From Streptomyces roseicoloratus (lineage in GTDB: Bacteria > Actinomycetota > Actinomycetes > Streptomycetales > Streptomycetaceae): a stretch of 64,000 nucleotides of DNA. Position 1 is the stretch's first letter, and the number at the start of each line of letters is the position of its first letter. Below are positions 34,934 through 55,806 of the stretch, in pieces. Made by a program: the position numbers and the translations under genes. Below the pieces are notes generated by a model, which worked only from the letters and a program-made list of their open reading frames with translations, ran no database searches and was not told the origin of the DNA. The stretch is from assembly GCF_004117935.1 (NCBI RefSeq), contig NZ_SDOY01000144.1, positions 62,001 to 126,000 of the forward strand, in the 5' to 3' direction.

Positions 34934-36520
34934 TCATCTAAGGAGATTAGTAAGGGTGGGGTCATGAGCCTCCAGAGGCCCCGGAGGGGAATCGGGTCGC
35001 CTCCCGGCTCGCGGACGAAATAGCGCCAGCAACGCCGGGGCGCCCAGCAGGGCCTCCGGCCACGCGCCCAGGCTTGCGGCGATCGTCCGCCCGTCCAGGA
35101 GTGGAACCCGCTCCATCAGGTAGCCCCCACGCCATGTGCCGAGCCGGTCCGAGACCGTCCCGTCCGGCCTCACGATGGCGCTGACCCCGCTCGTCGAGGC
35201 GAGGGCGACGGCTCGGCCGTACTCGATGGCCCGGATGCGCGCCATCGCCAACTGCTGCTCCGACTGTCCTCCCTGGAAGCCGCGCTCGTAGGTCGCATTG
35301 TTCGTCTGGACGACGAGGAGATTCGCGCCAGCCCGCACCGTGTCCCGCACCCGTCCGTCGTACGCGATCTCGTAGCAGATCACGTCGCCGAGCCACACGG
35401 GGCCGGCCGCCAGGGGTGCCTGGGACACACCCGGGATGAAGTCCCGGGGGATGAGCTGTAGGGCGCCGAGCCCGCCCAGGGCGGAGCGGGCCGGGATGTA
35501 CTCGCCGAAGGGGACGAGTTGCCGCTTCGCGTACGAGGCCACGGGGCCCCGCCCGGGAAGCCAGAGCTGTCCGGCGTTGTACGACCGGCCTCCGGGCCCG
35601 TCCAGGATCGCGCCGATCAACAGCGGCGCGTCGAGCTCGCGGACCGAGTCCGCGACGAGCGCGCCCAGCTCGGGGTCGGCAAGCGGGTCGCTGTCGAGTG
35701 AGTTCTCCGGCCACAGCACCACATCGGGTCGGGGGGCCTTGCCCGCCCGGACGTCGTCGGCCAGCTTCCTGGTCTCACGCGCGTGGTTCTCGGCGACGCC
35801 GCGCACCCGCGCCTGCTCCTCCAGGGTCCGCTCGCGCTCCACATTGCCCTGGACGACCGCCACGACGGCGCTCCGTCCACTCGTCGCCGGAATGGTGACC
35901 AGGGATCCGTACGAGACCAGGGCGACCGCTCCGCACACGGCGATCGCCCCCACGCGAACGCGGGCGGTGCGCGGGGAGGTGATGCCGTAGACCAGCAGCG
36001 AGCCGAGGAGTGCCGTAACGAAGGTGAGCGCGGGAGCGCCGCCCACGGCCGCCCAGCCTGCCCACGGTGCATCGGCCTGACCGAAGGCGAGGCGTCCCCA
36101 GGGGAAGCCGCCGAGCGGAGTCCGTCCGCGTACGGCCTCGACGGCCACCCACCAGGCTGCGGTGAGCAGCGGCCATCCGGGCAGCCGCAGCAGGCGGGGC
36201 AACAGCATGGCGGCCAGCGCCACAACCACGGCCTGCGTCGCTGTCAGGGCGAGCCACGGGACCAGTCCGAGGTTGGCGAGCCAGGCGATCAGGGGGCCGA
36301 TGAAGGAGGCGCCGAAGACGGCTCCGACGGCGAAGGCGGACCGGGCGGACCGCCCCCGGATCGCGATCAGCAGGAGCGCTGGTCCGAGCGGTGCGAGAAA
36401 CCACAGGCCGATCGGCGGGAAGGAGGCGTAGAGCGCGATGCCCGCGAGGCCGGCCATGCCCCAGGCCCTCGTGCGGGGGAGCTGCCCAGACCGCGCACCG
36501 CCCAGTTCGTCGAGCGTCAC
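34934..36520 (-). CDS. lnt: Apolipoprotein N-acyltransferase
   Basis: A 528-aa protein with an N-terminal membrane domain of about seven or eight helices and a C-terminal nitrilase domain. The E-K-C triad is visible: VLWPENSLDSDP (Glu), ASYAKRQLVPFGEYIP (Lys) and GDVICYEIAYDG (Cys). It N-acylates lipoproteins after Lgt and LspA. The GTG start overlaps the stop of the upstream CPICNK membrane gene (GTGA), so the three-gene set CPICNK-lnt-lgt is one operon. A CTAAG-N4-TTAG dyad lies over its last codons. Confidence 0.95.
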   Translation of the reverse strand: MTLDELGGARSGQLPRTRAWGMAGLAGIALYASFPPIGLWFLAPLGPALLLIAIRGRSARSAFAVGAVFGASFIGPLIAWLANLGLVPWLALTATQAVVVALAAMLLPRLLRLPGWPLLTAAWWVAVEAVRGRTPLGGFPWGRLAFGQADAPWAGWAAVGGAPALTFVTALLGSLLVYGITSPRTARVRVGAIAVCGAVALVSYGSLVTIPATSGRSAVVAVVQGNVERERTLEEQARVRGVAENHARETRKLADDVRAGKAPRPDVVLWPENSLDSDPLADPELGALVADSVRELDAPLLIGAILDGPGGRSYNAGQLWLPGRGPVASYAKRQLVPFGEYIPARSALGGLGALQLIPRDFIPGVSQAPLAAGPVWLGDVICYEIAYDGRVRDTVRAGANLLVVQTNNATYERGFQGGQSEQQLAMARIRAIEYGRAVALASTSGVSAIVRPDGTVSDRLGTWRGGYLMERVPLLDGRTIAASLGAWPEALLGAPALLALFRPRAGRRPDSPPGPLEAHDPTLTNLLR

Positions 36521-36972
36521 GTGGGTACGGGGCAGTTCTCGGCGGTACGGAGTCGGCGGATCACTGCGTACGTGAGCAGGCCCACCGAGGCGAGCGCCAG
36601 TACGGGCTGCAGCGGGGCCCAGAAGGACAGGGCTCCGCTCACGCCGATCGCGAGCACCACCAGCTTGTTGCAGATGGGGCAGCCGACGGCGAAGGCGGAG
36701 AGCAGACCGGCCCCCAAGGCGCGGGCAGTCTGGGGGCGATCATGCGCGGGCTCCTCGACGGCCGGGCGCGGGCCCACGCGGACGTACGACGCGACCAGCA
36801 GCCCCTCAAGAGCCGAGCTGACGATCCACACCGGGTAGTTCCACCAAAGGACGGGTGTCATCCGGGTGTAGAAGGGCGACGGGACGACGCCTGTGGGCAC
36901 ACCGATCACAACTGCGGCGAGCAGGGCCACCGCCGCGGCGACGGCCCATCTCCGGAGGGGCCAGTTGCCCAT
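36517..36972 (-). CDS. Small membrane protein with CPICNK motif
   Basis: A 151-aa protein with about four hydrophobic segments. Near residue 105 AFAVGCPICNKLVVLAIGVS places a CPxC motif at the start of a helix, a good Cu or Hg site. FYTRMTPVLWWNYPVWI precedes it. I do not recognise a named family. It is first in the lnt-lgt operon (GTGA overlap), suggesting that metal sensing or transport is linked to lipoprotein maturation. ATG 36972 lies in MGNWPLRRW. Confidence 0.65.
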   Translation of the reverse strand: MGNWPLRRWAVAAAVALLAAVVIGVPTGVVPSPFYTRMTPVLWWNYPVWIVSSALEGLLVASYVRVGPRPAVEEPAHDRPQTARALGAGLLSAFAVGCPICNKLVVLAIGVSGALSFWAPLQPVLALASVGLLTYAVIRRLRTAENCPVPT

Positions 36973-37066
36973 GCACGTACTCCTTGGGAGAGGGGTGCCG
37001 TCGGCCGGTTGGCGGGCCACTGCGGGGGAGCCTGCTCGGGTCGTCCGGCCGACGGTGAAACCGATC

Positions 37067-37090
37067 GTAGTCTACGAATCTACTTAGAAG
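37067..37090. promoter_or_regulatory. AT-rich dyad region upstream of the CPICNK-lnt-lgt operon
   Basis: CGTAG-T-CTACG is a perfect palindrome at 37066-37076, followed by CTACTTAGAAG. The right part resembles one half of the CTAAG-N4-TTAGA dyad found at 39807, 53358 and 55793, the left half being degenerate. It lies about 95 bp upstream of the operon start. Confidence 0.4.
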
Positions 37091-37107
37091 AACAGAGGGG
37101 ATTCTTG

Positions 37108-38535
37108 TCACACTCCGGGCAGGAGGTGCGGGCGTCCCCGTCCAGACCGGGAGGTCAGGAGGAGCAGTGCTCCCGACAGGCCGTACAGCGCGACAGCGGC
37201 GGCGGTCCTGCCCGCTCCCGCCTGTTCCGGTGCGGCAGGCAGGTAGAGGTCTCGGGTCTCCCGTACGGTCCCGCCCGCCGACAGGTCGACGGGGATCCAG
37301 GACTCGACGGCGCGACCGGACGGGTCCCGGAGGACGGCGTACACGAACCAGCGCCCGGCATCGTGCAGGGTTACCGCACCCCTGAATCCCCCAGCGCCAT
37401 CGGGGGCCAGCGTGCCGGTGACCTCGCCACCCGCGCGCCGAGCGACCAGCGAGGGCGTGCCCGGCCCGGTCGGCGTCAAGGCGACCGCGACTTCTACGAC
37501 AGAGCCCCGCACGGAGGCGTCCCAGCGCACCTCGCCCACGACGACCCCCTGGCCCGGATCGTGCGCGACGGCTCGTTCCGGGCTCGCCAGGGACTGGAGG
37601 GCCAGGATGCCGGCGACCGCGGTGATCGCCGCCACCCGGGTGATCCATGCCCGGGGCCGGCCCTCTGCGGCCAGGACGGCCACGGCGGAACCGGCCAATG
37701 ACAGCAGCAGGGAAGGGATCGCCAGGCCGAGTGGTACGGCCGTCGCGTGAGGCAGGAGGGGGAGCAGGGGTAGGGAAAGCAGGTGTGTCATCACCGGCAC
37801 GACGGCCGCGAGTGCCCACGGCGACGCGACCCGTCTCCGGACCAGGTCCGCTGCCACCGCCACGCCCAGGACGAGTGGCACCATCGGCGTCGAGTACCCC
37901 AGGAGGGCGAGTACCGGAACGACCAGCAGCCGTACAGCGGTTACCAGCAGTGCCGCCCGCGTGAAGGCCCACGGCTGCGGATCGAAACGGCGGATCAGTA
38001 GGGCGGCGAGGGTGACGCCGACGGCGACGGCCGGAAGGAACCACACCTCCGAGAACTGCGGCACGTCCGACTCGTACTCCATGACCGGAGCGAGCGACGC
38101 GGCCAGGACGAGCGCCGAGCCGAGCGCGATCGACCTTCCTCCGCCCTCCCCTGCGATCGCCCGCAGCAGGACCACCGAGAGCGTGAAGGTCGCCGTGATC
38201 GCCAGGAGATGCGGCGGGCTCCAGAGGACCGAGTCACGGCCGAACGCCGTGTGCCAGGCGGCGTCCGCCGGCGCCGCGATCCCGATGGCCCCGCCCGCTG
38301 CGGCGGCCCACCGCAGCAGCGGGTCGGCGACCGCCGCGCGGAGCCCCTGGTCGCGGGCCTGGCTCAGCACCCATCCCGCGACCATGACCAGCGTTCCCGT
38401 CAGGGAGCCGTACAACAGGACATGAGGGGCGCTCCAGAAGGTGTCCCGGCCTTCGTCGGTGTGCAACGAGTCGTCCCAGTACATGCTGAACAAGGCCAGC
38501 AGGCCGCCGATCGTGGCAGTGACGAGCCATCTCAA
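37108..38535 (-). CDS. Multi-span membrane protein with C-terminal extracellular beta domain
   Basis: A 475-aa protein: about ten hydrophobic segments in residues 1-320, with two similar WSAPHVLLYG and WSPPHLLAITAT motifs that suggest an internal repeat with conserved Pro-His pairs. The last 140 residues (VVVGEVRWDASVRGSVVEVA, VTLHDAGRWFVYAVLRDP) look like an Ig/CopC-like or YtkA-like beta sandwich, followed by one final helix. Function unknown; the SxPH motifs in membrane helices could bind copper. It is between the lnt operon and the L,D-transpeptidase, same strand. Confidence 0.7.
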   Translation of the reverse strand: MRWLVTATIGGLLALFSMYWDDSLHTDEGRDTFWSAPHVLLYGSLTGTLVMVAGWVLSQARDQGLRAAVADPLLRWAAAAGGAIGIAAPADAAWHTAFGRDSVLWSPPHLLAITATFTLSVVLLRAIAGEGGGRSIALGSALVLAASLAPVMEYESDVPQFSEVWFLPAVAVGVTLAALLIRRFDPQPWAFTRAALLVTAVRLLVVPVLALLGYSTPMVPLVLGVAVAADLVRRRVASPWALAAVVPVMTHLLSLPLLPLLPHATAVPLGLAIPSLLLSLAGSAVAVLAAEGRPRAWITRVAAITAVAGILALQSLASPERAVAHDPGQGVVVGEVRWDASVRGSVVEVAVALTPTGPGTPSLVARRAGGEVTGTLAPDGAGGFRGAVTLHDAGRWFVYAVLRDPSGRAVESWIPVDLSAGGTVRETRDLYLPAAPEQAGAGRTAAAVALYGLSGALLLLTSRSGRGRPHLLPGV

Positions 38536-38581
38536 CGCGTCCCCCTCGGGTGGTGTTGTCGGGTGGGTGCCGGCCGGGTGA

Positions 38582-39784
38582 TCAGGAGAGCGCGCTGCCC
38601 TTCTTCCAGGTCTCCCAGTCGACGTTCCAGGCGCCGTAGCCGTTGTTGACGGCGACCGTGTCCGTGGAGTTCACGACGGTGACGGGGTCACCGAAGCGCA
38701 CCTGGTCGTAGAACCACTTCGCGTCCGCCGTGCTCATTCCGATGCAGCCGTGGCTGGCGTTGACGCGGCCGAACTTGCCCTCGTTCCAGGGTGCAGCGTG
38801 CGCGTACGTGCCGGACGGGGTGAGTTGGACGTCCCACTTGACGTCCTCCATGTCGTACGCTTCGGGGCCGAAGATGCCGACGGTGGAGGAGTTCATCCGG
38901 ATCGAGGGGACCTTGCCGAGGACGACCATGGTGCCGTTCCAGGTCTCGAAGGTCTCTTTACCGGTGGAGACCTTCAGGGTCCGTAGGGCTTTCCCGTTCC
39001 TGGAGACCGTCATGGTCTTCTTCACGACGTCAACGGTGCTGGTCACGGCTTCGCCGATGCGGAAGTTCACGACGCGTTTCTGTGTGCCGTAGACGCCGCT
39101 GCCCGCGTCCACTCCGGCGAGGTCCATGCGCAGGGTGACATCGGTGCCCGGCTTCCAGTACTCCTTCGGCCGGTAGTCGATCCGGTCCTTGCCGTCCCGG
39201 TCCTTCATCCAGCTCCAGGCGCCCTCGACCGCTGGGGACGAGGTGACCGTGAGCTTCCGCTCGACAGCGGCCTTGTCGTGGATGGGCTTGTTGAAGGTGA
39301 TCGAGACCGGCAGGGCGACGCCGACGGTCGACTCCTTGTCGACGTTGTACGTGCCGACGAAGGTGCTCTTGGCCGCCGGGGTCGTGAAGTTCGACGATTT
39401 ACTCAGAGGAGCGCCGTCACCGCCCGTGCCCTGGGCGGAGATCGTGTATGTGGCGCCGGGGGAGAGCGGCGTCGTCGAGGTCCACACGGATTTGTCGGCG
39501 GAGAGTGATCCTTCCACCTTGCCGGGCCCGGGCGCGCTCACGTCCACGGAGGTCAGTACCCCGCCCTGGGCTTTGACCGTGATCTTCCCGGTAGTCCCGG
39601 TGTCGACGGCTATCGCGGACGGCCCTCCACTCGTCGTCGCGTCCCTCGCCGGCTTTCCGGTCGCTCCCGTCCCGGAGTCCGTCGCTCCCGCGGAGCTGCA
39701 GCCGGCCACGAGGAGGCCGGCCGCCGAGGTGAGCGCGAGCATGCGCACGGCGCTGTGCCGGTTCCGTGCTCTCGTGTGCTTCAT
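38582..39784 (-). CDS. L,D-transpeptidase lipoprotein (YkuD domain with Ig-like domains)
   Basis: A 400-aa protein. Lipobox LLVAGCSS gives an N-terminal lipid anchor. Two Ig-like domains lie at about 50-240 (GKITVKAQGGVLTSVDVSAP, PVSITFNKPIHDK), followed by the YkuD catalytic domain with NASHGCIGMSTADAKWFYDQ, the HxxxSHGCxxM-type active-site Cys. It forms 3-3 peptidoglycan cross-links, as in mycobacterial LdtMt2-like enzymes. GGAAGGGG lies upstream of ATG 39784. The CTAAG-CAAA-TTAGA dyad lies 23 bp upstream. Confidence 0.93.
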   Translation of the reverse strand: MKHTRARNRHSAVRMLALTSAAGLLVAGCSSAGATDSGTGATGKPARDATTSGGPSAIAVDTGTTGKITVKAQGGVLTSVDVSAPGPGKVEGSLSADKSVWTSTTPLSPGATYTISAQGTGGDGAPLSKSSNFTTPAAKSTFVGTYNVDKESTVGVALPVSITFNKPIHDKAAVERKLTVTSSPAVEGAWSWMKDRDGKDRIDYRPKEYWKPGTDVTLRMDLAGVDAGSGVYGTQKRVVNFRIGEAVTSTVDVVKKTMTVSRNGKALRTLKVSTGKETFETWNGTMVVLGKVPSIRMNSSTVGIFGPEAYDMEDVKWDVQLTPSGTYAHAAPWNEGKFGRVNASHGCIGMSTADAKWFYDQVRFGDPVTVVNSTDTVAVNNGYGAWNVDWETWKKGSALS

Positions 39785-39806
39785 AGTGCCCCTTCCGTCT
39801 AACTCT

Positions 39807-39820
39807 CTAAGCAAATTAGA
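39807..39820. promoter_or_regulatory. CTAAG-N4-TTAGA dyad upstream of the L,D-transpeptidase
   Basis: CTAAG-CAAA-TTAGA, 23 bp upstream of the start codon and very AT-rich for this genome. A further CTAAC lies 8 bp to its left. It matches the sites at 53358 and 55793; the BlaI-type protein encoded at 42287-42655 is a candidate binder. Confidence 0.6.
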
Positions 39821-39876
39821 AGACGAGTTCCCGAGTCGGGTAGTTCCCGCTCTCCTCGCTTACTTGAGTGGGGAGT

Positions 39877-40620: not shown

Positions 40621-40829
40621 GAAAGCCTCCAGGAAACTGAGGGCACACGGCGGCGGCCTACCTGCGGCCTTGCGGGCGGAGGCGGGCGGCGTCGAACCGT
40701 GCAAGGGAGTGGAACCGAAGCGTGGCCTGTCGGCGGGACGGCGCTCCGGGCATGAAATGGGGACAGCCCAGCGACCGCTGGGTGAGGGACCCAAGGACGC
40801 AAGGTGTCGCGCGTCGCCTCGGGTGCCTG

Positions 40830-41246: not shown

Positions 41247-41252
41247 GGCGCG

Positions 41253-41258
41253 ATCATA
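41253..41258 (-). promoter_or_regulatory. -10 box TATGAT, leaderless start
   Basis: TATGAT, then CGCGCC, then the GTG at 41246. The spacing of exactly 6 nt equals that before the family members at 18176 and 42755. Confidence 0.6.
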
Positions 41259-41378: not shown

Positions 41379-42290
41379 TTAGACGCCGGGCGGGCAGGCG
41401 ACCAGCAACGGAAGCAGCGGGACGGCGAGGGCGACGGAGGCCACCGAGCCCCAGAGCGCCGGGTGAGGGGCTCGGCGCGGGCCGAGGATGCGCTTCATGC
41501 GGAGGACGGCCGCCGAGCCCCCCGCGCCGAACGCGCCCTTCGGGGCCCGGCCGGCGGCCATCTCGTACATCGCAGTCGCCAGGGCCTCGTGCGAGTGGCT
41601 TCGCAGAGCGCGGTCGTCCGCGATCATCTCCAGCAGCACGGCCATCTCCGCCCGTGCCCGGCGTGCGAGTGGCAACCAGGGGAAGACGGTGGCGAACGCC
41701 TCCGCGGCCGCGATCAGCAGATGGTGGCGGCCGGCGACGTGCGCCCGCTCGTGCTCGAGGACGGCGTCGAGCTGCTCTTCCGTGAGCAGTCGCACGGCGG
41801 CGTCGCTCACCACGATGCGGGAGCGGAGCCCCGGTAGGCAGTACGCCGCGGGCGTGCCGTGCATCAGGACGGTGGCCCGCAGACGGTCGGAGCGCACTCC
41901 CACCTTGTCGAGCCGGTCACGGTGTCGAGCGCGCGTCAGCCCTGCCCGGGCGAGGTGGAAGAGAAAGGCGCCGACGATCGCGGTGACGACGGCAAGGGGC
42001 ATCGCCAGGGCCAGTCGGTCGGCGGTGGTCGGGTTGGGCGCCACAGGGGCCCCCGTACCGAGGCCGCAGGCGTGCAGCAACCCTACGAGTCCGGCGTGCA
42101 GATGCTCGGTGGGCGTGGCCAGCTGGGAGGCGGCGAGCGCGGTCGCGAGCGTGAACGACACCATGAGGGCGAGCCATATGGCTGCTCCGAGGGCCGGTGC
42201 CCGGTGGGGCCAGGCGCTGCGCACCATCAGGCGTGGGGCGGCGATGCCCACCACGGCCGCGTACCCCAGAAGGGCGGGGGCCGCGTTCAC
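41379..42290 (-). CDS. M56-family membrane metallopeptidase (BlaR/MecR-like protease)
   Basis: A 303-aa protein with four membrane helices around a cytoplasmic zinc-protease domain. The HExxH motif is VLEHERAHVAGRHHLLIAA near residue 180, with the following helix FATVFPWLPLARRARAEMA. No extracellular penicillin-binding domain is present, so the signal sensed is not necessarily a beta-lactam. It overlaps the BlaI-type repressor gene (ATGA), the usual BlaI-BlaR pair in which the protease cleaves the repressor. Confidence 0.92.
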   Translation of the reverse strand: MNAAPALLGYAAVVGIAAPRLMVRSAWPHRAPALGAAIWLALMVSFTLATALAASQLATPTEHLHAGLVGLLHACGLGTGAPVAPNPTTADRLALAMPLAVVTAIVGAFLFHLARAGLTRARHRDRLDKVGVRSDRLRATVLMHGTPAAYCLPGLRSRIVVSDAAVRLLTEEQLDAVLEHERAHVAGRHHLLIAAAEAFATVFPWLPLARRARAEMAVLLEMIADDRALRSHSHEALATAMYEMAAGRAPKGAFGAGGSAAVLRMKRILGPRRAPHPALWGSVASVALAVPLLPLLVACPPGV

Positions 42291-42655
42291 TGCTTCGCCC
42301 GTCGTCCGACGTCCCGCAGGGCCTTCCGGAGCGCCGCGATCTCGTCGTCGTCGAGGTTCTCCACGAACTGCACGAGAGCGGCGGGCCTATCCTCGCTGAC
42401 TTCCAGGCCGTCCTCCATGAGCGCGGCCGAGTACGCCTCACGTGAGCCGACGGCCTTGTACAGCCAGATCCGGCCGTTCCTGGCCCGTGTGAGGTGGCCC
42501 TTGTGGAAGAGGATGGTCGTGACCGTGGTCACGGTCGTGTAGGCGGCGTCTCGATGCAGATTGATGTCGTCGACGACCTCACGCACGGTGGCGGGGCGGT
42601 TCCATCTCCAGAAGCGGTCCATGATCTCCGCTTCAAGTTCCCCCAGCCGGCGCAT
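42287..42655 (-). CDS. BlaI/MecI/CopY-family repressor
   Basis: A 122-aa winged-helix protein: RRLGELEAEIMDRFWRWNRP, ATVREVVDDINLHRDAAYTT and VTTVTTILFHKGHLTRARNG, matching Penicillinase_R. The C-terminal helix mediates dimerisation. GAGAGGAAC precedes ATG 42655. It is first in the operon with the M56 protease and probably autoregulated; TAGTAGAC at 42693-42700 is a candidate half-site. It is the natural candidate for binding the CTAAG-N4-TTAGA sites, but that is not shown. Confidence 0.92.
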   Translation of the reverse strand: MRRLGELEAEIMDRFWRWNRPATVREVVDDINLHRDAAYTTVTTVTTILFHKGHLTRARNGRIWLYKAVGSREAYSAALMEDGLEVSEDRPAALVQFVENLDDDEIAALRKALRDVGRRAKQ

Positions 42656-42754
42656 GGCCCGTTCCTCTCCGCTGATCAGCACTCGGTTTCATAGTAGACG
42701 GGCGTACACGTGGGGTTCCGCGCTCGACGGACATGCGGTGCCTAGGATGGGCTC

Positions 42755-43262: not shown

Positions 43263-43901
43263 ATGAACACGCACCGCAAGCTGATCCGTCGTACCGCCCT
43301 CGTCGCCGCCACCGGCGTCGCCGCCCTGGTGCTCGCCGCCTGCGGCGGCAACGGCTCCAGCGGCCACGACATGGGCTCCATGGGAACCGAGTCCTCCGCG
43401 CCCGCCACGAGCGCGCCGGCGCAGACCGGTGACCACAACGCGGCGGACGTCTCCTTCGCCAAGGAGATGATCCAGCACCACCGCCAGGCCGTGGAGATGG
43501 CCGACCTGGCGCCGACGCGGGCCTCGTCCGCGGAGACGAAGGAGCTGGCCGCGAAGATCAAGGGCGCCCAGGACCCTGAGATCAAGACCATGTCCGGTTG
43601 GCTCACGTCGTGGGGCGAGGAGGTCCCCGCCGACATGTCCGGCATGGGCCACGACATGGCGAACGGCATGCCCGGCATGATGAGCAAGGCGGACATGGAC
43701 GAGCTCATGCAGGCCAAGGGCGCCGAGTTCGACAAGATGTTCGCCGAGATGATGATCAAGCATCACGAGGGCGCCATCGAGATGGCCACGACGGAGAAGG
43801 CGGAGGGCAAGTACGGCCCCGCCCTCAAGCTGGCCGATGAGGTGATCAAGGCCCAGACGGCAGAGATCGAGCAGATGAACAAGATGCTCGGCGAGAGCTG
43901 A
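43263..43901 (+). CDS. DUF305 lipoprotein (CopM-like copper-binding)
   Basis: A 212-aa protein. Lipobox LVLAACGGN; a Met/His linker (GHDMGSMG) and then the DUF305 ferritin-like four-helix bundle: FAKEMIQHHRQAVEMADLA in the first half and FAEMMIKHHEGAIEMATTE in the second, each with the HHxxAxxM signature, separated by a Met-rich loop (MSGMGHDMANGMPGMM). Extracytoplasmic copper binding is expected. CAGGAG precedes ATG 43263. It follows the LRI-family gene by 94 bp and ends before a strong terminator. Confidence 0.93.
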   Translation: MNTHRKLIRRTALVAATGVAALVLAACGGNGSSGHDMGSMGTESSAPATSAPAQTGDHNAADVSFAKEMIQHHRQAVEMADLAPTRASSAETKELAAKIKGAQDPEIKTMSGWLTSWGEEVPADMSGMGHDMANGMPGMMSKADMDELMQAKGAEFDKMFAEMMIKHHEGAIEMATTEKAEGKYGPALKLADEVIKAQTAEIEQMNKMLGES

Positions 43902-43921
43902 CCGCAGCTCGGTCCGTGTGT

Positions 43922-46566: not shown

Positions 46567-47708
46567 CAGGCCCGCTCCTCCGCAGCGTCCGTGAGCTCGT
46601 CGTCGGCGACGTCGTCGGCGGCCGAGTCCTCATCGGTGAGCGTGAGGGGGTCGACCACGGTGGCGCAGCGGGTCCAGCGGGTGACCTCCTTCTCGTCCAG
46701 ACGGCCGATGACGTCCGGCTCGATCGCGGGCGGGCCGTCGAGCAAGCCGTGGGCGGCGCAGTAGTCGTCGTCGTACACGGTGCCGAGATAGCGCTGCGGG
46801 CCGTCGGGGAAGATCGCGGCGATCCGCGTCTCCTTGGGCAGGGAGCGGGCGAGCCAGCCCGCGACCAGTGCGACCGCGCCGACGCTCCAACCGCCGGTCG
46901 CGTAGTGGGAGGTGGCGAGCTGACGGCAGCTCCACACCGCCTCGCTCGGCGCCACCCAATGGACCTCGCTGAACTGTTCGTACGCGACGTTGCGCGGGTA
47001 GATGCTCGATCCGAGCCCGCGCATGAGCCGGGTGCGGGCCGGCTGGCCGAAGATCGTGGAGCCGATGGTGTCGACGCCGACCAGGGTCAGGTCCGGGTAG
47101 AGCTGGCGCAGGACACGGGAAACGCCCGCCGAGTGTCCGCCGGTGCCTACGCTGCACACCAGGACGTCGATGTGGCCGAGCTCGGTGGCGAGTTCGAGGG
47201 CGAGCGGGGTGTACGCGGTGGTGTTGTCCGGGTTGTTGTACTGGTCCGGGCACCAGGATCCGGGGTGCTGTGCGAGGAGCTGGGTGACCCGGTCCCGGCG
47301 GGCCTGCTGCCAGCCGCCGGTGGGGTGCGGTTCGGAGACCACGTTGACCTGGGCTCCGTACGCGGTCAGCAGTCGCGTCATGGACATCTCCAGGCCCGGG
47401 TCGGTGACCAGGGTGACGGGGTGTCCGTAGACCATGCCGGCGAGGGCGAGGCCGAGTCCGAGAGTGCCACTGGTGGACTCGATGATCCGTGCGCCGGGGC
47501 GCAGGTCGCCACGGGCGCGGGCCCGCTCGACCATGTGGAGACCCGGGCGGTCCTTGATGCCGCCGGGGTTGAAGCCCTCCAGCTTGGCCCAGAAGCCGCG
47601 GCCCGCCGGGGCGAGCGGCTCCGAGACGTGGAGGAGAGGAGTGTTGCCTACCAGCCCGGACAGGGCGGAGCGGGTGGGGGGTGTGACGTCGGTGGTCGAG
47701 GAGTGCAT
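46566..47708 (-). CDS. Cysteine synthase-like PLP enzyme (fold type II)
   Basis: A 380-aa protein of the OASS/CBS/SbnA group: [19 protein letters not shown], the PLP lysine in [14 protein letters not shown], the substrate loop [30 protein letters not shown] for phosphate binding. An unusual acidic C-terminal extension of about 45 residues ([20 protein letters not shown]) is present. The glycine-rich loop and ESTSGT differ from classic TSGNTG, so the natural substrate may not be O-acetylserine. Coupled to the MFS gene. Confidence 0.88.
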
Positions 47709-48351: not shown

Positions 48352-48741
48352 CTACACCTGAAGGACTGTTGAGGCTCTCGGGGCAGTCGACGGCGTTGTG
48401 CGCGCCTCGACCGCATGGGTGTTGGCCCGGATACAGGGCCCGGCAGAGCACGGCGCATCGGGCTGTCGCGAGGAACACGGCGTATTGGGTGCCGGTGTTC
48501 CCTCCGGCGGCCTTGGCGTGCATTCGTGTGCCGGGTGCGCCGGACCGTGGTCGCCGGAGTTTCCATCAATGCTGTGGGAAGCGCTGGTCATCGCGGGCGA
48601 CGCGACAACCGCGGCCCCGTCCACGTCCACTCCGTGCCCGACCATCAGGCCGAACAGGAGCGCGGCCAGGCCGAGTAGACGTCGCAACCCCGCTGAAGAG
48701 CGGGAGTGCGGCGCACGCGAGCGCGACCGGGCTGTAATCAC
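48352..48741 (-). CDS. Small membrane protein, LRI-tail family (DUF6153-like)
   Basis: A 129-aa protein with a membrane segment LLGLAALLFGLMVGHGVDVD closely similar to that of the 41246 gene, then HSIDGNSGDHGPAHPAHECT, two Cys motifs (PCSSR, APCSAGPC) and the end ASTVLQV. GTG 48741 lies exactly 6 nt after TAAGAT (48748-48753), again a leaderless arrangement. A CTAAG-type site lies about 120 bp upstream. Confidence 0.7.
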   Translation of the reverse strand: MITARSRSRAPHSRSSAGLRRLLGLAALLFGLMVGHGVDVDGAAVVASPAMTSASHSIDGNSGDHGPAHPAHECTPRPPEGTPAPNTPCSSRQPDAPCSAGPCIRANTHAVEARTTPSTAPRASTVLQV

Positions 48742-48859: not shown

Positions 48860-48873
48860 CTAAGCAACTAAGA
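48860..48873. promoter_or_regulatory. Degenerate CTAAG-N4-TTAGA site
   Basis: CTAAG-CAAC-TAAGA, one mismatch from the dyad, in a strongly AT-rich stretch (48855-48885) between the anti-sigma-like gene and the small protein at 48741. Confidence 0.4.
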
Positions 48874-48887
48874 AATAAATTTACGCC

Positions 48888-49712
48888 TCAACAATGCCCC
48901 CGTGGCGAGGCCGGCGTCGACCCCAGGCAGTGTTCGGTGCGCGGATCGGTGTGCGTCGGGTCGGCGCTGTGCCCCGCGCCCAGTGCCAACACGGCGACGC
49001 GGTGATCCGACTGGACGAGCGTGACTCGTAGCGGCGCTCCCGAGTCGCCGGCCAAGGCGTAGTCGTACACGACCGGCAAGTCCTGGCCGTGGCCCTCTCC
49101 GGTGGTCTGGGCGCCGTGCCATCCACACCGCCGCAGGGCCTCGGCCACTTCGCCGATGCTCCGCCGGGCCTCGCCTTCGGTGGGGAAGTCGACGATCCGG
49201 TGCTGCGCAGTGGCGTGACCCTGGCCGCTGTACGTGCGGACGATCTGGTCCCTTGCACTCGATCCGGAGAACCAGACGAGGCTGCACGGGTGGGTTCCCC
49301 CGCTCGGCAGGGCCGCGGTCGACCCGTCCCCGGTCGTGACCGCCTGCCATCGGTACGTCGCGTTCCAGGGCAGAGCCGCGGGTGAGAGCAGGGCCCTGGG
49401 TGCCAACCCGCGATCCGCGCTGGGCGAGGGCAGGATCGAGGCGGCCGCGACCAGTTGGCCGGTTGCCGGGTCGGGTTGCGCCGAGAGTGGCGCGTCCGTG
49501 GGGCGGGGGAGGACCCACCAGCCGGACGTGATCGCCACGGCGGCGACGACGGCCGTGGCCCCCGTACGGCGGCGAGTACGACGCCGGACAGCCCGGAGAC
49601 GTACGTCCGCGACTCCGCCGGCGGGGGCGACGAGGGCATCGACCTCGGCCGCGAACTCCCGGAGCCTCGAATCCAGTGCGCTGCCGTGCGGCATGGGCCT
49701 GTGGTCATTCAT
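48888..49712 (-). CDS. Membrane-anchored protein, probable anti-sigma partner
   Basis: A 274-aa protein with an about 50-residue cytoplasmic N-terminus (LDSRLREFAAEVDALVAPAG), a basic stop (RRRTRRRTG), one membrane helix and an about 190-residue external domain (SLVWFSGSSARDQIVRTYSG, FPTEGEARRSIGEVAEALRR). The start is in a strong AGGAGG context and overlaps the end of the ECF sigma gene by 8 nt. This order and topology fit an anti-sigma factor or sigma-associated sensor, although no ZAS motif (HxxxCxxC) is visible. Confidence 0.7.
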   Translation of the reverse strand: MNDHRPMPHGSALDSRLREFAAEVDALVAPAGGVADVRLRAVRRRTRRRTGATAVVAAVAITSGWWVLPRPTDAPLSAQPDPATGQLVAAASILPSPSADRGLAPRALLSPAALPWNATYRWQAVTTGDGSTAALPSGGTHPCSLVWFSGSSARDQIVRTYSGQGHATAQHRIVDFPTEGEARRSIGEVAEALRRCGWHGAQTTGEGHGQDLPVVYDYALAGDSGAPLRVTLVQSDHRVAVLALGAGHSADPTHTDPRTEHCLGSTPASPRGHC

Positions 49713-50280
49713 GGGGATACGCCTCCTGTCGAGGCCGGTACGGCGCGACCGCTCGTGGGCGGACGCGCGCCGGAGCCTCCGACGCGGCGGTGTCGGAGAG
49801 ATGGCTGTTCAGGATGCGGCGGGCGCGCATGAGGCGCGAGCGTACCGCCGTGCTGGTCGAACCGGTCTGTCGGGCCACCTCGTCCACGGGGAGGTCGACC
49901 AGATGATGCAGGACGACGGCTCGGCGCTGCTCGGGGGCGAGGTGCCGGAGCGCCGCGACCAGGGCCACGTGGTCCGGGTCGAGACCGGGAATGTCCGCAG
50001 GCGGCCCGTGCCGGAAGTGTGCCCTGACGCGGTTGCGGGCCCTACGCCACGAACTCACCGCCAGCCGCAGGGCGACCGTCCGCACCCAGGGGGTGGGGTC
50101 TCCCTGCTCGGCCAACTCGTTCCAGCGTGGCCAGGCTCGCGCGTATGCCTCCTGCACGGCGTCCTCCGCCTCGCCGATGTCGCCGGTGACCGCGTACACG
50201 ACGACGACCATGCGCCGCACGCTCTCCGCGTAGAATCTCTCGAAGTCCCGCTCGGTGGGGTCATGCGCGGGATCGTTCAC
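49705..50280 (-). CDS. ECF sigma factor (SigE family)
   Basis: A 191-aa sigma factor. Region 2 includes DFERFYAESVRRMVVVVYAV and GDIGEAEDAVQEAYARAWPRW; region 4 includes LRHLAPEQRRAVVLHHLVDL and VDEVARQTGSTSTAVRSRLM. The GTG start overlaps the murJ stop (GTGA) and the anti-sigma-like gene follows. Its target promoters probably include envelope-stress genes, judging from the murJ neighbour. Confidence 0.92.
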   Translation of the reverse strand: MNDPAHDPTERDFERFYAESVRRMVVVVYAVTGDIGEAEDAVQEAYARAWPRWNELAEQGDPTPWVRTVALRLAVSSWRRARNRVRAHFRHGPPADIPGLDPDHVALVAALRHLAPEQRRAVVLHHLVDLPVDEVARQTGSTSTAVRSRLMRARRILNSHLSDTAASEAPARVRPRAVAPYRPRQEAYPHE

Positions 50281-51980
50281 AGGCCACCTCCGCGTCCTTC
50301 CGCACGGTGGCGGCCGCGTTTCCCCAGCCGCCGCACCAGCGGTGCCAGAAGGGCATCCACCTCCGGCACGCCAAGCGGCCTGGCGAGCAGCAGCACGGAC
50401 AGACCGATGAACCCCGCGCCGATCAGCAGGGCACCGCCGTCGGCGAGTGGCCCGTCGCCCAGCACCCTGCCGGCCAGCCGGTCGACGGCGAGCGCCGCGC
50501 CGGCCCCGGGCAGGCAGGCGACCGCGAGCCGTACGTGGGTACCGAGTGCGCTGTCGAATCCCCGCCCCAGACGGCGTCGTAGCACCGTCGCGGTACACGC
50601 GAGACCGGCCGTGCACGCCAACGCGTACGTCCCCGCGATGCCGGCGACGGCCCAGTGAGCGGGCAGCAGGGCGTACGCGGCCAGTGACAGGCCCGCGTTG
50701 AGACAGGCGATCACGAGGGTGAGGAAGAAGGGCGTACGAGTGTCGCCGAGGGCGTAGAAGCCCCGAGCGAGAACGTACTGCGCCGATAACGCCGCGAGAC
50801 CTGGGGCGAACGCGGCAAGGACCCAGCCGATCGCCTGTGCATCGGCCTCGGTGACCTGGCCGTACTGATAGGCGACGCCGGTGAGCCGGGGTGCCAGGAG
50901 CAGGAAGACGACGGCGGCAGGGACGATCGCCACGGCTGTGGTCTTGAGGCAGCGGGTGAGCTCCGCGCCGACCCGGCCGGGGTCCCCGTCGATCGCTGCC
51001 CGGCTCATCACGGGCAGGAGGGCGGTGACCAGGGAGACCGTGATGATCCCCTGGGGGACGACCCAGAGCTGGTACGCGCTGCTGTATGCCGTGTACCCCA
51101 CACCCGCCGTGATCCCCTCGGCGTCCGCACGCAGTCCGGCCGTCGTGGTGAGCCGGGTCACCACCCAGTACGCGACCTGGTTCGCGAGCACGAGCAACAG
51201 CGTCCACACCGCGGCGCGCACCGGGCGGCCGAGGCCCGAACGTCGCCAGTCGAACCGTGGGCGCCACCGGAAGCCCGCGGATCGCAGGGCGGGCAGCAGG
51301 GCGAGGGCCTGCACCGCGATTCCCGCCGTACTGCCGAGACCGAGGAGAAGGAGCTGCCCGTCAGTGACCTCGCCGGCTCCGGTCGCCGTCGCGGCCACCA
51401 CCAGATAGAGGCCGAAGACCACGATCACGACCACGTTGTTGAGGACAGGGGTCCACATCATCGTGCCGAGCCGGCCACGGGCGTTGAGTACCTGACCGAG
51501 CACGGTGAAGGCGCCGTAGAAGAGGATCTGCGGCAGGCAGTAGCGAGCCAGGGCCACCGTGAGGTCGCGCTGGGGGCCGGCGTAGTCCGTGTACGCGGTC
51601 ACGATCCAGGGCGCCGCGAGCACGGCCACAGCGGTGATCGCGGTCAGTGCGACCAGGCAGAGGGTGATGAGCCGGTCGGTGTACGCGACCCCGCCGTCCT
51701 CGTGCTCCTTGGCGGCACGGACCAGCTCGGGCACGAAGACCGAGTTGAGCGCCCCGCCCATGAGCAGGATGTAGACGATGTTCGGCACCGTGTTGGCGAC
51801 GTTGTAGGCGTCGGCGAGCAGCGCGGTGCCCAGGGCCGCGACGACCACCGCGCTCCGTACGAAGCCTGTGATCCGGGAGGCGAGCGAGCCGAGCATCATC
51901 AGCGCCTTGCCGCGCCCGCTCCCCGCATCGCTCTTCGCGCTCCCGACGCCGGCGGCTCCCGCCGGCCTCGTCCCGGTCAC
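50277..51980 (-). CDS. murJ: MurJ-type lipid II flippase (MVF family)
   Basis: A protein of 567 aa from GTG 51980 (589 if GTG 52046 is used) with about 14 helices. MOP-superfamily MurJ features: LGSLASRITGFVRSAVVVAALG, TVPNIVYILLMGGALNSVFVP, ARYCLPQILFYGAFTVLGQVL and QYVLARGFYALGDTRTPF. It lacks the cytoplasmic pseudokinase extension of the main mycobacterial MurJ. Linked to an ECF sigma factor and divergent from a FemX gene, it belongs to an accessory cell-wall block. Confidence 0.92.
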   Translation of the reverse strand: MTGTRPAGAAGVGSAKSDAGSGRGKALMMLGSLASRITGFVRSAVVVAALGTALLADAYNVANTVPNIVYILLMGGALNSVFVPELVRAAKEHEDGGVAYTDRLITLCLVALTAITAVAVLAAPWIVTAYTDYAGPQRDLTVALARYCLPQILFYGAFTVLGQVLNARGRLGTMMWTPVLNNVVVIVVFGLYLVVAATATGAGEVTDGQLLLLGLGSTAGIAVQALALLPALRSAGFRWRPRFDWRRSGLGRPVRAAVWTLLLVLANQVAYWVVTRLTTTAGLRADAEGITAGVGYTAYSSAYQLWVVPQGIITVSLVTALLPVMSRAAIDGDPGRVGAELTRCLKTTAVAIVPAAVVFLLLAPRLTGVAYQYGQVTEADAQAIGWVLAAFAPGLAALSAQYVLARGFYALGDTRTPFFLTLVIACLNAGLSLAAYALLPAHWAVAGIAGTYALACTAGLACTATVLRRRLGRGFDSALGTHVRLAVACLPGAGAALAVDRLAGRVLGDGPLADGGALLIGAGFIGLSVLLLARPLGVPEVDALLAPLVRRLGKRGRHRAEGRGGGL

Positions 51981-52126
51981 GCCGCACTCGCCGGCGAGCC
52001 ATTTGCCTGGATGCCGGCGAAATCGTCTGCCACATTCCGGCGCCACCGGGCGTGCATGAGACAGGCGGGGGTATCCCGCCGCCCTCCCGCAGGGGGCGTA
52101 AGGACCAGAACGAGGAGACCTTCGAC

Positions 52127-53305: not shown

Positions 53306-53354
53306 GTCCACCCCAGGGGCGTGTGGATCGGTCATGGGTGAACCCTAATCTATC

Positions 53355-53373
53355 CTTCTAAGTCTTTTAGAAG
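53355..53373. promoter_or_regulatory. CTTCTAA-GTCTT-TTAGAAG dyad upstream of cbtBA
   Basis: A perfect inverted repeat with 7-bp arms; the best example of the CTAAG-N4-TTAGA element in this window. It lies just before the cobalamin riboswitch, where the promoter should be. Confidence 0.65.
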
Positions 53374-53384
53374 TTTGGTTGTGG

Positions 53385-53535
53385 GTTCGAGAGGCTTCGG
53401 CTACCTTGACCGGGACAAGTCAATCGACGGGCGGCGGAAGCCGGTGGGAATCCGGCACGGTCGCGCCACTGTGTGCTCGGCGGCAGCCGCTCATCTCCTG
53501 AGCGGCGCGGCTGGGCAAGTCAGACTCGCCCTCGT
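53385..53535 (+). promoter_or_regulatory. Cobalamin (adenosylcobalamin) riboswitch
   Basis: Contains the B12 core: AAGCCGGTGGGAATCCGGCA, CGGTCGCGCCACTGTG (B12 box GCCACTG) and the closing AAGTCAGACTC. It ends about 50 nt before cbtB and should switch cbtBA off when cobalamin is sufficient. Confidence 0.92.
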
Positions 53536-53585
53536 CGTACGAGCTCCATCCGACCGGGACGCGAGTTCCCACTGGAGGTCCTGCC

Positions 53586-53798
53586 ATGGCCCAGACCGCT
53601 GCTCAGCCGAGCGTCGCCACCCCCGCCGCACTCCCCGTCAAGGCGATTCTGCCCTGGGCCGTCTTCTTCGGGGCCCTGATGCTGCTCGCGCTCTTCTTCG
53701 TCGGCGCCGAGCAGGGCGCCACCGCCATCTTCGCCGGCGAAGGCGTCCACGAGTGGGTGCACGACGGCCGTCACCTGCTCGGCTTCCCCTGCCACTGA
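53586..53798 (+). CDS. cbtB: CbtB, cobalt transporter small subunit
   Basis: A 70-aa protein with one membrane helix (AVFFGALMLLALFFVGAEQG) and the C-terminal His-rich signature HEWVHDGRHLLGFPCH, typical of CbtB. Works with CbtA in cobalt uptake for cobalamin synthesis. It follows a B12 riboswitch and precedes cbtA by 18 bp. Confidence 0.93.
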   Translation: MAQTAAQPSVATPAALPVKAILPWAVFFGALMLLALFFVGAEQGATAIFAGEGVHEWVHDGRHLLGFPCH

Positions 53799-53816
53799 GA
53801 CGGGGCTGCGAGCATC

Positions 53817-54581
53817 ATGAACTCCGCAACTGTCGGAAAGCTTCTCGCGCGCGGCATGGTGGCCGGTCTCCTGGCTGGCCTCCTCGCCCTGGGCGTCGCC
53901 TACTTCCTCGGCGAGCCGCCGACCGAGGCCGGCATCGCCTACGAGGCGGCACACAGCCATGAGGAGGGGGCGGAACTGGTCAGCCGTGCGGCCCAATCCA
54001 CCACCGGTCTGGCGACGGGCGTCCTCGTCTACGGCGTCGGCCTCGGCGGAATCGCCGCGCTGGCGTACTCCTTCGCCCTGGGCCGGATCGGCGCATTCGG
54101 ACCCCGCGCCACCGCGGCGCTGCTGTCCCTCGGCGGCCTGATCGCGTTCTACGTCGTGCCGTTCCTCAAGTACCCCGCCAATCCACCGGCGGTCAGCGAT
54201 CCGGCCACGATCAGCCAGCGCACCACCCTGTACCTGCTCATGGTGGTGCTCAGCGTGCTGCTCGCCGTCTCCGCCGTGATCGTCGGCAAGCGGCTCGCGT
54301 CCCGTCTGGGCAACTGGAACGCGTCGGTCGGGGCAGGGGCGTTCTTCGTCCTCGCCGTCGGACTCGCCTACGCCTTCCTGCCGGCGGTCACCGAGATGCC
54401 GAAGGACTTCCCGGCTTCGGTCGTCTGGCAGTTCCGCGTCTCCGCGCTCGCCATCCAGGCCACGCTGTGGGCCGGATTCGGTCTCGTCTTCGGCATCCTG
54501 GCCGAGCGACTGCTGCAGCCGCGCGAGTCCGGCGAGCGGATCGGGGCCATGGAGCCGGGCGCGGTCGCGCCCTCGTCCTGA
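53817..54581 (+). CDS. cbtA: CbtA, cobalt transporter membrane subunit
   Basis: A 254-aa protein with about six helices. CbtA features: RGMVAGLLAGLLALGVAYFL, GEPPTEAGIAYE near the first loop, AALLSLGGLIAFYVVPFLKY and ANPPAVSDPATISQRTTLYL. The short loop YEAAHSHEEGAE may coordinate metal. Operon with cbtB under a cobalamin riboswitch; ends at a strong terminator. Confidence 0.93.
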   Translation: MNSATVGKLLARGMVAGLLAGLLALGVAYFLGEPPTEAGIAYEAAHSHEEGAELVSRAAQSTTGLATGVLVYGVGLGGIAALAYSFALGRIGAFGPRATAALLSLGGLIAFYVVPFLKYPANPPAVSDPATISQRTTLYLLMVVLSVLLAVSAVIVGKRLASRLGNWNASVGAGAFFVLAVGLAYAFLPAVTEMPKDFPASVVWQFRVSALAIQATLWAGFGLVFGILAERLLQPRESGERIGAMEPGAVAPSS

Positions 54582-54596
54582 CGCCTGTTCATGCGA

Positions 54597-54629
54597 GAGG
54601 GGGCGCCGGTCTCGGACCGGCGCCCCCTC
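54597..54629. terminator. Bidirectional terminator between cbtA and the NlpC/P60 gene
   Basis: GAGGGGGCGCCGGTC, loop TCG and exact complement; 15-bp perfect arms between convergent genes. Confidence 0.9.
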
Positions 54630-54640
54630 TGCTGTGTGCG

Positions 54641-55681
54641 TCAGCCGATGCGGACGCCCCACATGAAGGGCATGCCGCTGCGGGCGATCGACTCGTACCG
54701 CACCTGGGCGCCGGGCTTGGGTGCGTGGAGGATCTGCCCGTTGCCGGCGTAGAAGCCGACGTGGCTGAGGTCGCTGCGCATGATGATCAGGTCGCCGGGC
54801 TTCAAGGCGCTGAGGGAGTTGATACGCGTCCCGACGCCGGCCTGCGCCTGGGAGGTGCGGGGTATCGTCACGCCGGCCTGGCGGAACGCCCACGAGGTGA
54901 GGCCGGAGCAGTCGAACGAGGTCGGGCCGCTCGCGCCCCAGACGTACGGCATGCCGACGCGGCTCTTGGCGGCGGCGAAGGCCGCGGCGGCGCGCCCCGA
55001 GGCGCTCGCCTCGTTGCCGAGTTCGACCCGCGCGCTTGCCCGGTTGGCCCGGTCCTCCGCTTCCGCGATCCGGGCCCGCTCCTTCGCCGAGAGGGTGTTG
55101 AGCAGGCGCTGGGCCTCGCGCAGCTTGCCCTGGATCTCCGTCTTCCGCTTCCCCAGTTCCTTCTGTACGGAGTCGAGGTCGCGCAGTTTCCCGGAGGCTT
55201 CTCGCCGCTGCTGCTGGAGAACCCGCTGCTCGGAGAGGAACTGCTGCAGTACTGCTGCCTGCCGGTCGCCGGCGCGGTCCAGCGCGGTTGCCTTCTCCAG
55301 GTACGTGTCGGGATCCTGGGAGAGGAAGAGCTGGAGGGCCGGGTCGAGGCCGCCCGAACGGTACTGGCCTGCGGCCACCGTGCCGATCTTGTCGCGGAGT
55401 TCGTTCAGCTCACCCTGCTTGCGGGCCGCCGTGTCCTGGAGGGTCTCCACCTGCTCCTTGAGGGCGTCGGCCTTTTCCTTGGCTCCGTTGTACTTCTCGG
55501 TGGCCTGGGTCGCCTCCTCGTAGAGGCGGTCCACCTGCGCCTTGACGCCCTTCTTGTTGGGGTCGGGCAGTGGGTCGGCCGAGGCCACCTGGGTGGACAG
55601 AGCCACGGCCGCCGCGGCGGTGACGGTCAGGACGCCGGTGTAGCGCGGACTGGACTGCTTCGGGCGGCGGTGGGAGGCCAC
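54641..55681 (-). CDS. NlpC/P60 endopeptidase, secreted, coiled-coil
   Basis: A 346-aa secreted protein: Sec signal with ALSTQVASA cleavage, a long coiled coil at about 45-225 (VDRLYEEATQATEKYNGAKE), then the NlpC/P60 domain with catalytic Cys in SFDCSGLTSWAFRQAG, His in LSHVGFYAGNGQ and His in ILHAPKPG. RipA-like peptidoglycan hydrolase. GTG 55681 has GGAG upstream. A CTAAG-CTCC-TTAGA dyad lies about 112 bp upstream, shared with the L,D-transpeptidase and cbtBA. Confidence 0.94.
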   Translation of the reverse strand: MASHRRPKQSSPRYTGVLTVTAAAAVALSTQVASADPLPDPNKKGVKAQVDRLYEEATQATEKYNGAKEKADALKEQVETLQDTAARKQGELNELRDKIGTVAAGQYRSGGLDPALQLFLSQDPDTYLEKATALDRAGDRQAAVLQQFLSEQRVLQQQRREASGKLRDLDSVQKELGKRKTEIQGKLREAQRLLNTLSAKERARIAEAEDRANRASARVELGNEASASGRAAAAFAAAKSRVGMPYVWGASGPTSFDCSGLTSWAFRQAGVTIPRTSQAQAGVGTRINSLSALKPGDLIIMRSDLSHVGFYAGNGQILHAPKPGAQVRYESIARSGMPFMWGVRIG

Positions 55682-55792
55682 TGCGGAGCTCCTTCTTCCT
55701 CGACCGCCGACGTGCTGGGCGTACAGCCGGCGCGGCGGCGCCTCCGCCGCCGCCCCGGATGGGCGACCGGCTGCGCGAAGACTCCGCGAATA

Positions 55793-55806
55793 CTAAGCTC
55801 CTTAGA
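55793..55806. promoter_or_regulatory. CTAAG-N4-TTAGA dyad upstream of the NlpC/P60 gene
   Basis: CTAAG-CTCC-TTAGA followed by TGCTTAGA, a second half-site. It lies about 112 bp upstream of GTG 55681 in an AT-rich patch. Confidence 0.6.

Follow-up and report, generated by a model that had tools for sequence, protein, structure and literature searches.

In a 64,000-nucleotide stretch of Streptomyces roseicoloratus DNA (contig NZ_SDOY01000144.1, positions 62,001 to 126,000; hereafter the window), a cluster of envelope and metal genes shares an inverted repeat (dyad), CTACTAAG-N3-CTTAGTAG, in front of several of its operons. Judged by its sequence context, this dyad is very probably the operator of the cluster's BlaI-type repressor, whose hold on a mobile copper-plus-envelope regulon would be relieved via the M56 metallopeptidase encoded beside it. 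The sites, their consensus, placement and conservation, their linkage to the blaI-M56 gene pair and a match to a riboswitch model are features of the sequence itself. The longer consensus, a sigma-E-type promoter fused to one of the dyads, the predicted cobalamin riboswitch and the dyads on plasmids of another order had escaped an earlier note on this DNA, which had reported the core of the repeat.

That note had placed CTAAG-N4-TTAGA upstream of the L,D-transpeptidase gene (ldt), cbtBA and the NlpC/P60 hydrolase gene (nlpC), and a pattern search of the window together with the raw sequence returned exact matches at all three positions, with the dyad cores at 39807..39819, 53358..53370 and 55793..55805, respectively. 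The dyad before cbtBA has the 7-base-pair (bp) arms ascribed to it (CTTCTAA-N5-TTAGAAG in the raw sequence), and that before nlpC is followed 8 bp on by a further half-site, as are the sites in loci L160 and L161 (labels beginning with L and C denote loci and contigs of our survey). The three forms described as weaker are likewise present, as near matches at 34937/34938, 37074/37075 and 48859/48860. The first, a core CTAA-N5-TTAG at 34938..34950 before lgt, overlaps the last codons at the 3' end of lnt, as does the corresponding site (13528) of L080. The second (core 37075..37087) stands before the CPICNK-lnt-lgt operon; its rating as weak did not survive, as it is the top scorer of the window with the matrix of relatives' sites described below (32.9 bits). 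The third (core 48860..48872) precedes the gene of a small Cys/His-rich protein, and a similar site in L206, at 15118, has no called gene behind it. With up to two mismatches, CTAAG-N4-TTAGA gave 18 hits, compared with a mean of 4.42 and a maximum of 11 after shuffling.

The sites are clustered. All three exact matches in the whole genome (7.6 Mb in 180 contigs) fall between 34.9 and 55.8 kilobases (kb) of the window, that is within 21 kb, and so do 11 of the 18 hits with at most one mismatch. The remaining seven comprise five in tRNA genes, an unexplained one on contig C113, and one on C128, a contig that also bears a second BlaI-M56 pair. The tRNA genes on C131, C145 and C112 (L004, L007-L009, L018) contain CTCAGTTGGTTAGA or CTCAGCCGGTTAGA, which resembles CTAAG-N4-TTAGA with one mismatch.

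Sites of relatives extend the core to CTACTAAG-N3-CTTAGTAG, with CTACGAA/TTCGTAG as a common variant; the 14-mer first noticed is only the core of a longer element. Two matrices were used: a window matrix, trained on the six window sites alone, and a 27-bp relatives' matrix, built from window-matrix matches in 25 relative loci and hence not blind to the window. With the latter, the six sites take the first six ranks of the window, at 22.1-32.9 bits, followed by an independent place at 12503 with 13.6 bits; no place of at least 15 bits occurred in 20 first-order Markov versions of the window. The window matrix found 53 non-overlapping sites of at least 18 bits in the 512 kb of the 25 loci, a set that omits the near-identical L083, L087, L090, L091 and L097, and the short or distant L081, L094, L099-L127 and L139-L141, in the last three of which no site exceeded 12.4 bits. 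Intergenic positions account for 51 of the 53, compared with 22% of random positions. An equal frequency within genes, which the earlier note had named as refuting its reading, is therefore not what is seen. When overlapping registers were counted, 55 of 57 sites were intergenic and 49 of 57 lay within -60..400 of a gene start (33% of random positions were upstream). Eight column-permuted matrices gave 0-3 sites in the same 512 kb, and the window matrix found none of at least 12 bits in 384 kb of arbitrary genus DNA (20 stretches at arbitrary positions in genomes of the genus). A profile made from 40 of 74 relatives' site sequences, after removal by eye of off-register or near-identical ones, returned only four rows at E<=10 from the own genome (E 0.68-2.28, individually weak): window 37069 on both strands, window 55789 and C128:10735. 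The dyad at C128:10735 lies just 3' of the second BlaI-M56 pair (64% identical BlaI), beside a CsoR gene and a 760-amino-acid gene.

The association with ldt (38582..39784, minus strand; Big_10 and YkuD domains, with a lipoprotein-like start by eye) could be followed across 48 homologous loci, some of the 20 closest being near-copies of each other. The nearest named relatives in this search were Streptomyces. A window-matrix site of at least 15 bits was found upstream of 19 of the 20 homologues at least 60% identical, and of one of the 28 below 60%; thus, the dyad belongs to the island form of ldt, not to L,D-transpeptidases generally. The same test with the relatives' matrix is partly in-sample, as that matrix contains ldt sites; the window-trained test is not. 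In L102, L082 and L084 (about 9720-9890), two dyads lie between divergent resB and ldt genes, one closer to each.

In the window, a promoter of sigma-E type, GGAAC-N17-CGTCT (39821..39847, minus strand), is joined directly to the ldt dyad. Streptomyces coelicolor sigma-E promoters, including those of other L,D-transpeptidases, share the GGAAC...CGTCT form (PMC6767563, available text). GGAAC-N16/18-CGTCT stands upstream of ldt in the window and in 17 of the 20 close loci, and in none of the 28 more distant ones. Of 18 ldt loci compared, window included, 15 show a fusion of CGTCT with the dyad or with a near form of it; two further matches lie elsewhere, and GGAAC-(N15-18)-CGTCT occurs twice in the arbitrary genus DNA. 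Since the ldt promoters are orthologous, these counts show conservation rather than independent origins. The sigma-E form was recorded for ldt only; in some relatives, inspection by eye suggests that the dyads before CPICNK and lgt are flanked by -35 and -10 boxes. As the ldt dyad follows the -10 element and covers the likely transcription start, it occupies the place of a repressor.

Between the dyad and cbtB, a cobalamin riboswitch aptamer is predicted (RF00174; 53366..53547, plus strand; 32.8 bits, gathering threshold 31.5), the start of which overlaps the core of the 53358 dyad by 5 bp. With such a leader, the cbtBA operon would have two controls in series. There was no Rfam match in L267, L268, L088 or L206, which limits the riboswitch link to the window. 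A supposed cbtB behind a dyad at L088:19687 was dropped, as Pfam gave no match for it and a methyltransferase-like gene lies beside it.

The candidate binder is encoded in the same cluster. The BlaI-type repressor (42287..42655, minus strand, start codon chosen by eye) matches the winged-helix family PF03965 (Penicillinase_R) at 78.8 bits with a cut-off of 22.6; its closest solved chain is 2g9w (E 4e-19), which we take to be Rv1846c, the BlaI of Mycobacterium tuberculosis, and MecI (1okr) follows at E 2.2e-05. The adjacent M56 metallopeptidase (41379..42290, minus strand) keeps the HExxH motif, with H179, E180 and H183 invariant in 17 of 17 proteins. It scores 29.8 bits with PF05569, just under the 31-bit cut-off, and 35.6 with PF01435 (M48; cut-off 20.3). 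Only peptidase models match this protein of about 303 amino acids, and it has no penicillin-binding sensor domain.

The earlier note had named this pair as the best candidate regulator, and the homologues support it. Of 29 loci with a BlaI homologue, collected through protein similarity alone and regardless of the motif, 11 have a site of at least 18 bits within about 1.5 kb, as compared with none in the 384 kb of arbitrary genus DNA. In L160 and in L161, L162 and L165, the latter three of a single genus, the dyad lies in the blaI promoter region itself; it stands before CPICNK-blaI-M56 in L096 and L098, and between divergent lgt and blaI-M56 in L219 or nlpC and blaI-M56 in L220. The order is blaI-M56-dyad-nlpC in L221-L223 and copZ-copA-csoR-blaI-M56-dyad in L212 and L213. 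In a class-wide BlaI search, 16 of 20 new loci show no M56, and among them only L255 has a site, a weak one (19.3 bits) adjoining blaI. Over 50 BlaI loci, sites of at least 17 bits occur in 10 of 27 with M56 vs 3 of 23 without. In an alignment, the recognition helix reads AYTTVTTV in BlaI of the window, of its nearest homologue G242 and of C85 vs AYTTVMTV in most others. At three of the six window sites, TTAGAAG stands in place of the TTAGTAG of relatives, so that helix and operator may have co-varied.

The genes behind the dyads point to copper and the envelope. In 36 loci chosen for sites, ldt or BlaI (L207, L208, L210, L218 and L224 were omitted for want of a 20-bit site or as near-copies), 85 sites of at least 20 bits lead to 79 distinct genes, 48 of which resemble a named reference: 16 ldt, 10 nlpC, four CPICNK, two lgt, two blaI, one DUF5134 and one CsoR gene, together with four DUF305 (CopM by NCBIfam), three ResB, two HMA chaperones, two P-type ATPases and one SCO1/SenC. 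The CPICNK gene behind dyads in relatives precedes lnt as well as blaI-M56. Because of how the loci were picked, the share of targets is not unbiased; the survey tells what stands behind dyads, not how frequently copper genes bear them. Pfam searches, covering roughly half of the 31 unrecognised genes, found M23 peptidases, a cupredoxin, a thioredoxin-like protein and DUF6153, DUF3105, GNAT, MMPL and CAP proteins, some genes having no match; in L137, the DUF6153 relative behind a dyad is followed by a multicopper oxidase. Most of the recognised targets serve copper handling or the envelope, alongside a remainder of uncertain relation. The link of envelope and metal genes that the note had proposed is therefore supported, and sharpened to envelope and mostly copper genes.

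Overlapping packages are found on plasmids. A BlaI match occurs in 58 plasmid records, of which four were examined: pFRL3 of Streptomyces sp. FR1, pI of S. mirabilis P16B-1, and plasmids of Mycobacterium gallinarum and Rhodococcus erythropolis. All four stretches have blaI, M56 and the Ig-like (ldt) gene, two have lgt and one has lnt. Sites of at least 15 bits number 10 in 34 kb of pFRL3, nine in 27 kb of S. mirabilis pI, and four in 16 kb of each of the Mycobacterium and Rhodococcus plasmids, compared with Markov means of 0-0.1 and a maximum of 1. The best plasmid dyad (33.2 bits) precedes an F510_1955-CopC operon in Rhodococcus, and another (21.3 bits) its lgt-type gene; in Mycobacterium, sites stand before DUF305 and ctaD. 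Kitasatosporales and Mycobacteriales thus seem to have the operator in common, even though BlaI of the latter is only 42-43% identical.

These observations suggest a mechanism whose protein steps we infer. With no signal, a BlaI dimer would sit on the dyads, which lie in or beside the core promoters of the target operons, and block ldt, lgt, CPICNK-lnt, nlpC, cbtBA and the gene of the small Cys/His-rich protein. A signal, likely copper at the cell surface or envelope damage caused by it, would activate the M56 membrane protease, which would remove BlaI by cleavage, and the operons would be expressed jointly. Because its promoter GGAAC-N17-CGTCT is fused to the dyad, ldt would require an envelope-stress extracytoplasmic function (ECF) sigma factor, presumably of the sigma-E kind, in addition to removal of the repressor; cbtBA would additionally respond to cobalamin via the predicted riboswitch. 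As the M56 protein keeps HExxH and has no sensor domain, the signal is presumably not classical beta-lactam binding; copper is our best guess, judged by the target genes.

Several observations weigh against BlaI as the binder and copper as the theme. The plain pattern is no more frequent in the genome than its reversed control (7+11 hits for the motif, 12+12 for the control), and therefore the evidence is clustering and placement, not the total; it is in this sense that the repetition, as the earlier note held, is unlikely to be chance. Likewise, in 150 genomes of the genus, where per-genome columns were compared by inspection, TCTAA-N5-TTAGA and CTACKAA-N5-TTMGTAG (one mismatch) were no commoner than reversed controls among the matches listed. 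Plain patterns were thus rejected as genome-wide detectors; of 14 stretches around single pattern matches, 13 (L058-L067, L069-L071) contain no cluster gene, and the other, L068, contains ldt. In the arbitrary genus DNA, one site reaches 15 bits with the relatives' matrix and none reaches 18; the distant ldt locus L118 has a 15.8-bit site (18.8 with the relatives' matrix). A BlaI gene is seen in only 9 of the 20 close ldt loci, within flanks of up to 10 kb, and 18 of the 29 BlaI homologue loci have no site in the flanks examined. The blaI promoter of the window, which had been described as only loosely similar, has just a half site, CGTCTACTATG (42690..42700, minus strand), including a possible -10 element, TACTAT; the same holds for several close relatives, the half site recurring in the blaI promoters of L085, L086, L129, L137, L050, L148, L149 and L150. 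Within 1.5 kb of the nearest BlaI examined (94% identical, G242) there is no site, and the surrounding 20 kb contain a single dyad; a 78% identical paralogue on C85 has no site of at least 17 bits in 20 kb. No called gene lies behind 9 of the 85 sites, 31 of the 79 target genes were not recognised as cluster genes, and cbtBA is annotated for cobalt, not copper. Apart from this, the C85 paralogue has no recognised M56 neighbour and lies 11 kb from another lnt-like gene (C85:22646 and C85:33650).

Could the dyad be the operator of another regulator that travels with the island, such as a TetR protein, a SigE-family sigma/anti-sigma pair, a two-component system or CsoR, with BlaI-M56 a mere neighbour? 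There are candidates enough: a sigma factor beside murJ in the window and in pFRL3, a TetR protein in pFRL3, a two-component system and a metal-sensitive regulator in the Rhodococcus island, a helix-turn-helix protein behind a dyad in the S. mirabilis island, and csoR adjoining blaI in L212, L213 and C128 of the same genome as the window. We nevertheless consider this distinctly unlikely, because no regulator other than BlaI-M56 is both annotated in each of the four plasmid stretches and present in the window, as far as the incomplete PLSDB gene tables go, because the dyad-bearing S. mirabilis, Mycobacterium and Rhodococcus stretches have no annotated sigma factor or TetR, and because dyads lie in the blaI promoter region in several lineages. 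The sigma factor at 49705-50280 was rejected as binder, since a two-fold operator differs from a sigma promoter and none is annotated in L268-L270, and CsoR was rejected on its operator sequence, ATATACCCCTNAGGGGTATAT in Streptomyces (PMC3902906, available text), which is unlike the dyad.

If BlaI is the regulator, its inducer might still be cell-wall damage or beta-lactams, the copper genes being passengers or acting downstream of envelope stress. The best-known role of BlaI is that of a beta-lactam switch (PMC7593790, available text), several targets are cell-wall enzymes, and the ldt promoter is of sigma-E type; however, the M56 protein, at about 303 amino acids, has no penicillin-binding domain, no beta-lactamase or penicillin-binding protein model matched among the subset of dyad targets scanned, and genes for a copper chaperone, ATPase and CopM stand directly behind dyads. 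We therefore rate this as rather unlikely. That the dyads act as RNA hairpins (attenuators or processing signals) instead of binding a protein seems extremely improbable. Coordinated arm changes (CTACTAA/TTAGTAG, CTACGAA/TTCGTAG) would indeed pair in RNA too, but in ldt promoters the dyads come directly after the likely -10 element, the arms are mostly A/T, and one dyad can serve divergent genes (L219, L220).

What remains preferred, namely a BlaI operator in a mobile copper-plus-envelope regulon, would have several consequences. The dyad supplies a precise candidate operator and a candidate sensor-protease pair, offers a reason why copper genes and lgt, lnt, ldt and nlpC occur together on islands of actinobacteria, and defines a regulon by which such islands can be annotated. 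It also suggests that M56-BlaI pairs devoid of a penicillin sensor may serve to sense metals or the state of the envelope. Work on Gram-negative bacteria, as far as its available text goes, describes inhibition of L,D-transpeptidases by copper (PMC11390936) and impaired lipoprotein acylation (PMC6538781), with a commentary discussing a block at the Lgt-modified cysteine (PMC6593411). The island may thus be read as a mobile set of "spare parts", an interpretation that, taken whole with its AND gate and its two orders, we hold tentatively and a little on the doubtful side. If it is true, a single BlaI-M56 pair lacking a beta-lactam sensor activates copper export and oxidation as well as extra envelope enzymes, the extra copies being those whose reactions copper poisons (L,D-transpeptidase, and Lgt and Lnt of lipoprotein maturation); ldt would be an AND gate for BlaI release and an envelope-stress sigma factor, and the same operator would serve overlapping gene sets in two or more orders of Actinomycetota, some of these sets being on linear plasmids. 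Among the matches listed in a literature search, mostly outside subscription journals and in available text, neither the operator nor a copper-envelope BlaI regulon was described. The novelty of the operator sequence is accordingly provisional. Overall, the evidence favours a variant of the BlaI-M56 pair of repressor and protease whose operator is defined and adjoins promoters of sigma-E type, and which would control a copper-plus-envelope regulon that is mobile.

The other genes of the cluster are lgt (34046..34915, minus strand; one of two LGT matches in the genome), lnt (34934..36520, minus strand; one of three LNT_N matches), the CPICNK membrane protein gene (36517..37020, minus strand; no Pfam or NCBIfam match at E 0.001), a DUF305/CopM-type metallochaperone gene (43263..43901, plus strand), which has no dyad of its own here and has one in some relatives, the gene of the small Cys/His-rich protein (48352..48741, minus strand), cbtB (53586..53798) and cbtA (53817..54581), both on the plus strand, and the NlpC/P60 peptidoglycan hydrolase gene (54641..55681, minus strand; best NCBIfam match RipC, below that model's cut-off). 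The gene at 37108-38535 encodes a large membrane protein that matches an acyltransferase model weakly, below its cut-off, and has, by eye, a CopC-like C-terminal part; its type adjoins ldt in several islands. A block of murJ, sigma factor and possible anti-sigma factor recurs in three islands (window 48888-52046, L096 11166-14345, L267 11670-13721), accompanied by a FemAB-like gene in the window and L096. A pyridoxal phosphate-dependent enzyme and a major facilitator superfamily transporter (window 45271-47708) also accompany islands, being 80-93% identical in L085, L096, L098, L136, L206 and L223.

Among known systems, BlaI/MecI repressors bind palindromic operators at promoters, the classical one being of the TACA-TGTA type. 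The island operator CTACTAAG-N3-CTTAGTAG, with the consensus CTACTAAGnnnCTTAGTAG, is by eye not of this type. The island shares with the BlaI/MecI-BlaR1/MecR1 systems a PF03965 winged-helix repressor beside an M56-type membrane protease; in contrast to them, its M56 protein has no penicillin sensor and its targets are copper and envelope genes, not beta-lactamase. In BlaI-BlaR1 pairs, BlaI is cleaved upon a signal (PMC7593790). M. tuberculosis BlaI is likewise an actinobacterial BlaI with an M56 neighbour, and the available text of its literature describes no copper-envelope island and gives no operator sequence. The Rv1846c regulon links cell wall and respiration, with blaC and ATP synthase as known targets. 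CopY/TcrY belong to the same superfamily and have copper-related targets; unlike the island BlaI, CopY is not known to be paired with a protease, and the window BlaI scores 23.9 bits with the CopY/TcrY model (TIGR02698), far below its cut-off of 121.95. Streptomyces CsoR controls copZA (PMC3902906), and a CsoR gene neighbours the BlaI-M56 pair in C128-type loci, but the dyads, compared by eye, are unlike its operator. The words "copper" and "BlaI" do not occur in the main text of PMC6767563, as available. Finally, the ldt promoters have the form of the Streptomyces sigma-E regulon, from which the island is set apart by a dyad operator fused to the -10 element.

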